Program-made: the position numbers and the translations under genes
NCBI RefSeq assembly: GCF_004346225.1
Contig: NZ_SMAJ01000006.1
Location: 62,001-126,000 of the forward strand
Source: Paralcaligenes ureilyticus
GTDB lineage: Bacteria > Pseudomonadota > Gammaproteobacteria > Burkholderiales > Burkholderiaceae_B
Direction of reading: 5' to 3'
DNA length: 64,000 bases
The notes under the pieces: model-generated
Database searches by the model: none
What the model saw: the letters and a program-made list of their open reading frames with translations, nothing else
What the model was told of the DNA's origin: nothing
Shown: one piece after another, positions 3,283-50,791 of the stretch
Layout: every line of letters begins with the position of its first letter
Position numbering within the stretch: the stretch's first letter is position 1

Positions 3283-3372
3283 GGCAGCCACAAGGGCTGC
3301 CGCTACATTAGCGACGGGTACGTTCTCGATTAGGACGGATACGTTTTTGTAGCGGCACCCCTTGTGGGTGCC
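3283..3372. repeat. REP pair (BIME-like) 1
   Basis: Two REP-like hairpins facing with their GTAG ends inward: 3283-3306 (stem GGCAGCC/GGCTGCC, on the minus strand) and 3349-3372 (GTAG at 3349, stem GGCACCC/GGGTGCC), 42 bp apart. It starts 2 bp after the stop of the CMD-like gene and separates convergent genes. The two stems differ but both pair perfectly. Confidence 0.88.
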
Positions 3373-5689: not shown

Positions 5690-5757
5690 GGCAGCCACAA
5701 GGGCTGCCGCTACATAACGTGGCGGTCGCTCATGTAGCGGCACCCCTTGTGGGTGCC
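5690..5757. repeat. REP pair (BIME-like) 2
   Basis: Inward-facing GTAG hairpins at 5690-5713 (GGCAGCC/GGCTGCC, minus) and 5734-5757 (GGCACCC/GGGTGCC, plus), 20 bp apart, in the gap between dppF-like and hutG-like genes of the same operon direction. If transcribed, the two arms can form independent stems. Confidence 0.88.
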
Positions 5758-12584: not shown

Positions 12585-12651
12585 GGCACCCACAAGGGGT
12601 GCCGCTACAAAAACATACCTGTCGCATGTAGCGGCAGCCCTTGTGGCTGCC
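12585..12651. repeat. REP pair (BIME-like) 3
   Basis: Inward-facing GTAG hairpins at 12585-12608 (GGCACCC/GGGTGCC, minus) and 12628-12651 (GGCAGCC/GGCTGCC, plus), 19 bp apart, between the lipA start and the crotonase stop. Confidence 0.88.
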
Positions 12652-12665
12652 ATTTCACACCGCTG

Positions 12666-13454
12666 CTAACACCCCTTCCATACAGGCGGCCGCTTCTGCG
12701 TGAAGGCATCGATGCCTTCGGCCACGTCCTGGGCCATCATGTTTTGCGCCATAACACCCCCGGCATAATCGTACGCATCGGCCAGGCCCATACTGCGTTG
12801 CCGATAATACATGGCCTTGCCGGTACGCACCGCCACCGGACTTTTCGCGCAAATAGTCTGCACCAGGGCTGCCACGGTCGCGTCAAGCTGCCCGGGCGCC
12901 ACCGCCTGATTGATCAAGCCATTATCCACCGCTTCGGAACTGCTGATGAAGCGGCCGGTCATCAGCATTTCAAAAGCCTTTTTGGCCGGCACATTGCGCG
13001 ACAAGGCCACCGCGGGCGTCGAACAAAACAAGCCGACATTAATCCCCGACACCGCGAACTTGGCCGTATCGGCGGCAATGGCCAGGTCGCAACTGGCGAC
13101 CAATTGGCAACCGGCAGCGGTCGCCATCCCGTGCACTTTGGCAATTACGGGCACCGGCAACGCCACCAAACTTTGCATCACCCTCCCGCAACGCGCGAAT
13201 AACCGCACGTAGTAATCGTGGTCGGACGCAGCGCGCATCTGCTTCAAATCGTGGCCGGCGCAAAACGCCCGCCCCGCGGCGGCAAGCACCACACAGCGCA
13301 GGTCGGCGTCCTGCGCCAATACATCCAGGCTGCTTTGCAACTGGGCCAGGAGTTCCTCGGTCAAGGCATTGAATTGATCCGGCCGATTCAAGGTCAACGT
13401 GACTACCCCATCGACCCGATCCACCAACAATTGTGCTTGCTCTGATGTGGACAC
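12666..13454 (-). CDS. Enoyl-CoA hydratase/isomerase family protein (crotonase)
   Basis: A 262-residue crotonase-fold protein. The oxyanion-hole segment AAAGRAFCAGHDLKQM and the second, HGMATAAGCQLVASCDLAIA, are clear. The GTG at 13454 is taken as the start because it follows AGGAG by 6 bp and begins STSEQAQLLVDRVDGVVTL, the usual N-terminus; the upstream open frame runs into a REP element. It sits between lipB and lipA with REP clusters on both sides, which suggests it was inserted there. Substrate unknown. Confidence 0.88.
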   Translation of the reverse strand: MSTSEQAQLLVDRVDGVVTLTLNRPDQFNALTEELLAQLQSSLDVLAQDADLRCVVLAAAGRAFCAGHDLKQMRAASDHDYYVRLFARCGRVMQSLVALPVPVIAKVHGMATAAGCQLVASCDLAIAADTAKFAVSGINVGLFCSTPAVALSRNVPAKKAFEMLMTGRFISSSEAVDNGLINQAVAPGQLDATVAALVQTICAKSPVAVRTGKAMYYRQRSMGLADAYDYAGGVMAQNMMAQDVAEGIDAFTQKRPPVWKGC

Positions 13455-13561
13455 GCTGATCTCCTGTTGGCGCTGCGAAGCGGGAAGCTTTCTGCTTGCC
13501 CACCACTGAAAACAAATGAGTTTGTATTTTACGCTGGCGACGGTATCGCGACCGCTGTTGT

Positions 13562-13754
13562 GGCACCCACAAGGGGTGCCGCTACAAAGACCCGCCGGAA
13601 CGTTATGTAGCGCCACCCCTTGTGGGTGGCATAACCCTGGAATGAAAGACGGTGTCTTGCGTAGATGACAGGCACAAGGCCTGTCGCTACAAAATTCGCC
13701 TGCCGGTACAAAGCTCGCGTACAGGTACTTGTAGCGGCAGCCCTTGTGGCTGCC
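13562..13754. repeat. Cluster of four REP elements
   Basis: Four hairpins in a row: 13562-13585 (GGCACCC/GGGTGCC, minus), 13607-13630 (GTAG then GCCACCC/GGGTGGC, plus), 13667-13690 (GACAGGC/GCCTGTC, minus) and 13731-13754 (GTAG then GGCAGCC/GGCTGCC, plus). All four stem types of the family occur here, each perfectly paired with the same loop. The 13607-13690 part resembles the pair at 36086-36168, including the CCCTGG spacer. Confidence 0.88.
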
Positions 13755-13773
13755 ACCTTCACAACATAGCGTC

Positions 13774-13993
13774 GTGGCCAGTCAAGGTGGGGCGGGCGAT
13801 TCGGGCACGCCGCGCGCAGGGCCGGCTTCGGGGATGCAAGGCGTGCGCTGTTTGAGTGGGACGATTGCGAATAGCCCAGTGGGCTATTCGCCCCACGAGT
13901 TCGCACGCCGCCCCGAAGCCGGTCCTGCGCGCGGGAAGTCATGGCGAAGCCATGACCGTGACCGTCAGAGCCCGCCCCACCTTGACTGGCCAC
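13774..13993. repeat. Long fold-back element, copy 1
   Basis: A 220-nt imperfect palindrome in a 681-bp gene-free stretch (13455-14135). Outer arms 13774-13797 and 13970-13993 are 24 bp and pair perfectly. A second stem pairs 13811-13833 with 13911-13933 (one G-U), a third pairs 13840-13847 with 13902-13909, and the apex is an 11-bp stem 13867-13877/13881-13891 with loop AGT. The right arm carries an extra hairpin at 13938-13956 (GTCATGGC, GAA, GCCATGAC). A related copy with compensatory arm changes lies at 41828-42024. No open frame inside looks coding. Could be a MITE-like mobile element or a structured RNA. Confidence 0.85.
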
Positions 13994-14062
13994 GTCGCGG
14001 GGCTAGAAAAAAGGTTCTAGGCGGATAGGTTATGCGACAAAAGAATGCCACCTGCAGCGAAT

Positions 14063-14086
14063 GCCACCCACAAGGGGTGGCACTAC
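14063..14086 (-). repeat. Single REP element
   Basis: Minus-strand GTAG at 14086-14083 with stem GCCACCC/GGGTGGC. It is the right-hand end of a longer unit shared with 42091-42114, as the bases before it (GAATGCCnCCTnCAGCGAAT) are nearly the same in both places. A further partial GGGTGGCG follows at 14088. Confidence 0.85.
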
Positions 14087-14135
14087 GGGTGGCGTTGCGA
14101 ACGCGGTAATACGGGTAGCGATACAGAACGCCAAT

Positions 14136-14780
14136 CTACCGCACGCCCGAGCCATACCCCTCGAAAACCTGGCTCAGTCGCAGCGCCAGCAGATCGCCGG
14201 CTTGTTCAAACGGTATTGATATGCCGCAAGTCCGCAAATCAACAGTGCGCAAACCTTCGTAGCCGCAGGGATTAATCCCCAGAAAGGGCGACAAGTCCAT
14301 GGCCACATTCAACGCAACGCCGTGATAAGCGCAACCTTTGCGAATCTTGATCCCCAAGGCGGCAATCTTGGCCAGATCGTCTTGCTCCATAGGCACATAC
14401 ACCCCAGGCGCGCCCGCCTTGCAGCAGGCTCGGGCAAGCCCCAGCTCCTTCAGGACTCCAATCACCCCTTTCTCGAGCAACTCCACATACTCTTTGGCAT
14501 AAATGCCAAGACGCCGCAAATCGATCAGGCAATACGCCAGAACCTGGCCTGGCCCGTGATAGGTGACTTGCCCGCCGCGGTTCGATTGCACCACCGGAAT
14601 CGAACCGCTGTTCAGGATATGTTCGGGCTTGCCCGCCTGCCCCAAGGTATACACCGGCCGGTGCTCCACCAGCCAGATTTCATCGGGCGTGCCCCCGTCG
14701 CGCGCCTCGGTAAACGCCTGCATGGCCTGCCAGACATCAAGATACTCGGCCGGCCGCGCCCACCACTTGACGTTGATCAT
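14136..14780 (-). CDS. lipB: Octanoyl-[ACP]:protein octanoyltransferase
   Basis: A 214-residue lipoate pathway enzyme that moves octanoyl groups from ACP to lipoyl domains. Visible are [12 protein letters not shown] at 68-79, the active-site lysine region [12 protein letters not shown] at 143-154 and the catalytic cysteine in INPCG (Cys172). Its start overlaps the DUF493 stop by one base (TAATG), so translation is coupled. Confidence 0.95.
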
Positions 14781-23287: not shown

Positions 23288-23356
23288 GGCACCCACAAGG
23301 GGTGCCGCTACGTTAGCGGCGGGTACGTTTTTGTAGCGGCACCTCTTGTGGGTGCC
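23288..23356. repeat. REP pair (BIME-like) inside the end of waaA
   Basis: Inward-facing hairpins at 23288-23311 (GGCACCC/GGGTGCC, minus) and 23333-23356 (GTAG then GGCACCT/GGGTGCC, with one G-U pair, plus), 21 bp apart. The waaA frame reads through the second and stops at the TAG of GTAG in the first (23308-23310). Confidence 0.88.
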
Positions 23357-41788: not shown

Positions 41789-41827
41789 AACGCCGACGAC
41801 CACGCGAGCATCCACCGATTGAGCGTC

Positions 41828-42024
41828 GTGGGCGGTTAAGGTGGGGCGGGCGATTCGGGCACGCCGCGCGCAGGGCCGGCTTCGGGGATTCAAGGCGTGC
41901 GCTGTTTGAGCGAGACGCTTGCGAATAGCCCAGTGGGCTATTCGCCTCGCGAGTTCGCACGCCGCCCCGAAGCCGGCCCTGCGCGCGGCGTGCCCGAATC
42001 GCCCGATCCGCCTTAACCGCCCAC
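41828..42024. repeat. Long fold-back element, copy 2
   Basis: A 197-nt palindrome in the 395-bp gene-free stretch 41744-42138. Outer arms 41828-41841/42011-42024 (14 bp) and inner arms 41848-41887/41965-42004 (40 bp, perfect) are separated by a nearly paired 6-nt step, giving about 60 bp of stem. Then 41894-41901/41956-41963 and the apex 41921-41931/41935-41945 with loop AGT. Copy 1 at 13774-13993 shares most of the left arm and apex, but the outer stem sequence differs on both sides so that pairing is kept (CAGTC/GACTG against CGGTT/AACCG). Confidence 0.87.
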
Positions 42025-42090
42025 GATGCGGGGCTAGAAGGTTTATGCGGCATAGGGCGGTATATCAAAAGAATGCCGCCTTCAGCGAAT

Positions 42091-50659: not shown

Positions 50660-50791
50660 GGCACCCACAAGGGGTGCCGCTACATGAGCGAAGGAGTTCG
50701 TTTGACCGATAGCGCATCGGACGTCAAGGTTTTGTAGCGGCAGCCCTTGTGGCTGCCATATCGGCAATCCAAGCGACCCCTTGCGGCTGCC
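50660..50791. repeat. REP pair with an extra half element
   Basis: Inward-facing hairpins at 50660-50683 (GGCACCC/GGGTGCC, minus) and 50734-50757 (GTAG then GGCAGCC/GGCTGCC, plus), 50 bp apart, then a half copy at 50773-50791 (ACCCCTTGCGGCTGCC). Lies between the convergent Bug and clsB genes. Confidence 0.85.

Follow-up and report, generated by a model that had tools for sequence, protein, structure and literature searches.

The stretch of Paralcaligenes ureilyticus DNA analysed here, 64,000 nucleotides of contig NZ_SMAJ01000006.1 and hereafter called the window, carries a large non-coding fold-back element between an enoyl-CoA hydratase gene and lipB (Table 1). The element, copy 1, is a 230-nt hairpin (13769-13998) within a 236-nt repeat unit and has a REP-like palindrome on either side. 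Its minimum free energy of -187.4 kcal/mol compares with -111.5 +/- 4.9 kcal/mol for shuffled sequences (z = -15.5), and none of 200 shuffles was equally stable. The initial annotation had described a folded palindrome at this position, and its coordinates and stems were right; the side hairpin at the three-way junction went unmentioned. It had also read paired changes between copy 1 and a second copy in the window, and these are correct, with CAGTC/GACTG and GTGGG/CCCAC in copy 1 against CGGTT/AACCG and GCGAG/CTCGC in copy 2.

Table 1. Features of the copy 1 locus, together with copy 2, in window coordinates.
Feature	Position	Strand	Remarks
Enoyl-CoA hydratase gene, one neighbour of copy 1	12666-13616	-	Ortholog flanks the element in another genus
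REP-like palindrome, 5' flank of copy 1	13736-13754	-	GTAG type
Fold-back element copy 1, 236-nt unit	13768-14003	+	Strand is the orientation with the favoured fold; from folding and genome copies
Outer stem F, 5' arm	13769-13797	+	Pairs with 13970-13998; outer run of 25 bp, 13773-13797/13970-13994
Junction stem, 5' side (GGGCACG)	13802-13809	+	Pairs with 13957-13964; junction sequence alike in other genera
Stem A, 5' arm	13810-13833	+	Second stem, 24 bp; pairs with 13911-13934
Conserved one-sided loop ANGCAA	13834-13839	+	Conservation C 0.97, A 1.00, A 0.98
Stem B, 5' arm	13840-13847	+	8 bp; pairs with 13902-13909
Conserved internal loop CTGTTTGA	13848-13855	+	T, G and G at 1.00; A 0.99
Stem C (collar), 5' arm	13856-13860	+	5 bp; pairs with 13892-13896
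Apex hairpin D	13867-13891	+	11 bp, 13867-13877/13881-13891; covaries between copies
Conserved opposite loop GAGTT	13897-13901	+	Conservation 0.97-0.99
Side hairpin E (GTCATGGCGAAGCCATGAC)	13938-13956	+	8 bp, at the three-way junction; covaries with GTTCTGG..CCAGAAC of other copies; missing from copy 2
Outer stem F, 3' arm	13970-13998	+	Pairs with 13769-13797
3' linker starting TAGAA (CTAGAA with the last base of the unit)	14004-14062	+	Common to own-genome copies
REP-like palindrome GCCACCCACAAGGGGTGGC	14063-14081	+	GTAG tag on the opposite strand
lipB (octanoyltransferase)	14136-14780	-	3' end toward copy 1; beside the element in another genus too
Copy 2	41823-42029	+	Same core; 3' arm the perfect complement of the 5' arm; hairpin E gone

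The same parts recur across the family in a fixed order: outer stem F, the three-way junction with side hairpin E, stem A, loop ANGCAA, stem B, loop CTGTTTGA opposite GAGTT, stem C, a bulge near ACGNTT and apex hairpin D. Unit length is about 219-244 nt in most units with a cleanly delimited outer stem, in all genera sampled, and larger tabulated lengths reflect additional pairing in the flanks. In other genera the linker position is mostly taken by (C)TTAAGAAC or CAAGAAC.

Spread of the family within Alcaligenaceae

Copy 1 is a member of an old, non-coding, dispersed fold-back family typical of Alcaligenaceae. A search for further copies with a covariance model, as the initial annotation had advised, was made with a model built on the apical core of the element and found matches in 59 of 151 genomes and 24 of 43 genera of this taxonomic family, with 22 to 76 copies per genome in seven complete genomes. 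The P. ureilyticus genome holds about 45, some 40 found by the own-genome search and at least five more, of a subfamily mostly at contig ends, added by pattern search. The element breaks draft assemblies at contig ends, and in this draft genome the copy number is underestimated because contigs break inside elements (L239 1-90, L240 1-90, L241 3430-3591, L242 2080-2164 and the contig ends of L057-L060). A second subfamily in the same genome has the apex stem GCACAGCATGCTGTGC and a different collar (L224 1495; L240 16; L241 3439). Among named species, an exact match to the core occurs only in a Candidimonas metagenome-assembled genome.

Among 399 genomes sampled from the order, a single genome outside the family matched, and weakly, a negative result that is soft because filters were stricter and few candidates were scored per genome. 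This sole outside match has the same motif order in a smaller form, and more such small forms, related by motif order only, were found in other families by pattern search. The small forms of other Burkholderiales (L208, L243-L250) share the ordered CAAG...TGTTTGAG...CGAGTT motifs of the ~230-nt element and often carry a downstream GC-rich hairpin resembling hairpin E; their apex extension is short or absent, and several, among L243-L250 following the small form itself, bear a TTCTTTTGGNTACTTTTCTTG..CAAG hairpin that is not seen in the ~230-nt element. The order-wide pattern search mostly returned a repeated ungapped match resembling a coding motif, which was rejected, and a consensus of a wider Burkholderiales element had no BLAST, viral-contig or literature match.

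The window has no match at or above gathering score in Rfam 15, and the element loci of relatives have only rRNA matches; weak matches to miRNA models were discarded as palindrome artefacts. The literature consulted names no such element, the Bordetella families of PMC2267715 being set aside. The ~230-nt fold-back family is previously uncatalogued and without an Rfam family, with these Bordetella families as a possible exception, and represents an uncatalogued structured repeat carried by more than half of the family's sampled genera. The stem-loop sequence families described from 40 bacterial genomes (PMC2267715) belong to the same general class of structured repeat and, through Bordetella, include a related genus. 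ERIC/IRU, RU-1/2/3 and YPAL are likewise dispersed, non-coding, palindromic and intergenic with tens of copies per genome, and have been proposed as MITEs or RNA elements (PMC2229807, PMC2759123). However, the RU classes measure 103-168 bp (PMC2229807, PMC2759123), whereas the element spans ~230 nt and combines a three-way junction and conserved one-sided loops with complete turnover of the stems and a measured strand bias; ERIC/IRU, which has a 127-bp conserved consensus, was compared from its literature description.

Pairing, strand preference and genomic placement

Standard pairs account for 97.9% of cells in 101 distinct cores, both sides have changed in 31 of 33 pairs and nearly all stem positions use several base-pair types, although cell counts are not independent events because many copies are related. 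The covariation score is 0.853, compared with 0.185 +/- 0.007 for shuffled and 0.08-0.13 for slid controls, figures that are descriptive and not a formal test, since the model itself guided the alignment and its rows are related. The initial annotation had named a loss of covariation in a larger alignment among the outcomes that would speak against it, and with more copies aligned the covariation holds. It lies above both controls, as in a structured RNA, but template switching yields paired changes too. Most stem columns are conserved at only ~0.35-0.7, against mostly 0.85-1.00 for loop columns (few as low as 0.56-0.6), the conserved loops being GCAAG, TGTTTGA and CGAGTT, at mostly over 95%. 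Beside stem C a near-invariant GA lies opposite GA (A3 columns 30-31 and 90-91), which could form tandem sheared G.A pairs.

The fold of one strand appears to be favoured and a symmetric cruciform disfavoured, because G.T pairs outnumber A.C pairs both in the family cores (44 vs 3) and among 78 pairs predicted on both strands in own-genome copies (48 in 22 columns vs 7 in 6 columns). The flanks have no matching bias of C>T versus G>A (14/182 vs 22/268), and the + strand folds better by 14 kcal/mol on average. The suggestion in the initial annotation of a DNA cruciform is therefore disfavoured in its symmetric form. G.T pairs make up ~1.3% of core cells, a lower share than we would anticipate in an RNA stem free to evolve, which counts against an RNA. 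Conserved asymmetric loops together with the strand bias point to selection on the fold. The earlier view that preserved pairing reflects such selection therefore gains support from the 101 cores and the near-invariant asymmetric loops, but covariation alone is insufficient as proof, because template switching makes matched changes in both arms without selection and copies are homogenised within a genome.

Copies sit at gene 3' ends, away from promoters. In the P. ureilyticus genome 20 of 33 lie between convergent genes and 1 of 33 between divergent genes, against a background of 7 convergent among the 56 junctions of the window's predicted genes, a roughly five-fold enrichment based on gene calls from a simple codon-usage finder. 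Single copies in other genomes comprise 24 in convergent, 7 + 7 in tandem and none in divergent contexts, with one side undetermined for a further 8; a gene-orientation rule for single copies was abandoned, as the tandem contexts divide 7:7. Close pairs in other genomes are head to head in 23 of 23 cases, with 5' ends facing and some of these loci orthologous, while no head-to-head close pairs were seen in the own genome. A simple sigma-70 scan upstream of elements found no promoter enrichment. From these locations the element could influence the ends of convergent genes. Some copies of one related genus are found upstream of 16S rRNA genes, at a distance of ~1.2-1.4 kb (L119 2981-3101; L107 1-273); an association with rRNA operons was rejected, as it was seen at some copies of that genus and not in the own genome.

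Shared sites and sequence turnover

The copy 1 site is common to G053, a genome of another genus, where an element lies in the same orientation between orthologs of the enoyl-CoA hydratase gene and lipB. Including this one, three sites in P. ureilyticus (G000) and G053 lie in the same orientation between genes that are orthologous on either side (79-93% protein identity). The orthologous element copies are 62-65% identical, no higher than random copies from the two genomes, whereas identity to own-genome copies is 83-90% in P. ureilyticus and 95% within G053. As copies at shared sites resemble those of their own genome and not their orthologs, concerted evolution is suggested as the simplest reading, from three sites in one genus pair; repeated insertion at preferred sites is a possible alternative. 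Full site stability is counted against by a relative, G001, which has a single 26-bp REP where the own genome has REP-linker-element-linker-REP (L002/L178), the one clean case of an empty site.

Hairpins can both arise and persist through template switching, a process known to make changes of the kinds described below (PMC8794818). Copy 2 is less than full length, since its exactly complementary arms leave it without the side hairpin, a loss found in this copy alone among those aligned, and by the look of its arms it may be a template-switch rewrite. This arm rewrite, and an element inverted in place at an orthologous site of G128 and G108 (L109/L125), fit template switching; between orthologous copies double changes outnumber single changes. 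The family offers a natural data set on the question of how extended stems stay perfectly paired while their sequence turns over: its copies number in the hundreds and include shared sites, inversions and rewritten arms, from which selection, template switching and gene conversion are separable. A head-to-head pair in G147 (L173 1200-2420) is reduced in G108 (L124 1240-1760) by a deletion from one apex to the edge of the other element, at a short shared CGCGC-like sequence.

Candidate molecules and functions

While the description of the family is well supported, the molecule and its function we infer. As a whole, the observations are best explained by a folded single strand with conserved loops, with the RNA version preferred, a reading to which we give a probability of about one half. 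The favoured strand would act in its folded, single-stranded form, which a trans-acting factor would recognise via the conserved loops. In the preferred version this would be RNA, made when transcripts run across the ends of convergent genes and serving as a structured element for 3'-end processing or as a boundary, with single-stranded DNA as a possible alternative molecule. Such an RNA needs transcription from the far side or between paired elements, because in most placements readthrough from the nearer gene gives the disfavoured strand. Selection would maintain stem pairing together with template switching and gene conversion between copies, the latter two supplying the matched changes in both arms. 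More tentatively, large folded elements of this kind may have sites inherited across genera and sequences rewritten in concert per genome. Template switching would then renew the pairing of the arms, and a dedicated partner that binds the single strand (RNA or DNA) would preserve the fixed asymmetric loops.

The initial annotation had also offered the folded form as a transposition substrate, which is possible in view of the one clean empty site. A MITE- or REPIN-like element, non-autonomous and mobilised as folded single-stranded DNA by a trans-acting transposase that works on the conserved hairpin, would fit that empty site, the genome-specific families of copies and the head-to-head close pairs, an arrangement frequent in REP dimers (PMC3733652), and the one-sided loops and strand preference recall single-strand substrates. 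We nevertheless consider it doubtful. The Y1 transposase family PF01797 was not found in the own genome and has no association with the element across 151 genomes, being present in 12 of 59 element-bearing and 21 of 92 other genomes; some sites are common to two genera, and no target-site duplication was seen apart from the REP. Plasmid records contain no match, and the lone viral-contig pattern match does not fold like the element, so that a plasmid or phage origin was dropped. Inverted repeats are present; the one element pair inspected for an autonomous partner, in the G003 region, has none: the two nearby copies enclose ordinary genes and no transposase, and their role as transposon ends was rejected. 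The REP, BIME and REPIN sequences of the GTAG-REP super-family likewise occupy gene 3' ends and form head-to-head dimers and genome-specific sequence families, and REP stems have alternative complementary residues and G.T pairs as the element does (PMC3733652, PMC3116915). However, REPs are 20-40 bp palindromes with a GTAG tag, whereas the core is several times longer, the 236-nt unit has no GTAG tag of its own and the own genome has no associated RAYT gene.

It is unlikely that the elements are mutational by-products with a functionless fold, old palindromes that owe their perfect arms to template switching and their homogeneity to gene conversion. The rewritten 3' arm of copy 2, the in-place inversion, the excess of double changes at orthologous sites and the few G.T intermediates all agree with such an origin, but template switching on its own should remove both the asymmetric loops and the side hairpin, and among aligned copies only copy 2 has lost the hairpin. 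Loops that are nearly invariant across genera and the bias of G.T over A.C are also left unexplained by template switching. Less probable still is a transcription terminator or insulator acting between convergent genes via hairpin stability alone. Although convergent enrichment and the avoidance of divergent regions would suit this role, no intrinsic terminator, as a short GC hairpin with a T-run, was found over 13600-14150; an ordinary terminator is far shorter than the ~230-nt element, and stability alone requires neither conserved loops nor a junction hairpin.

The REPs flanking copy 1 are of the GTAG type, and the GCCACCCACAAGGGGTGGC palindrome has 626 matches with up to 2 mismatches in the genome. 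In the window, REP-like palindromes also occur in REPIN-like inverted pairs 48-79 bp apart from start to start (3283-3372, 5690-5757, 12585-12651, 13562-13630, 23288-23356 and 50660-50757), in a genome without a detectable Y1/RAYT transposase. Short tandem repeats such as CTTAAGAACG and GGGTGGCGCTAC are found at element or REP edges (flanks of L155, L169, L014 and L178).
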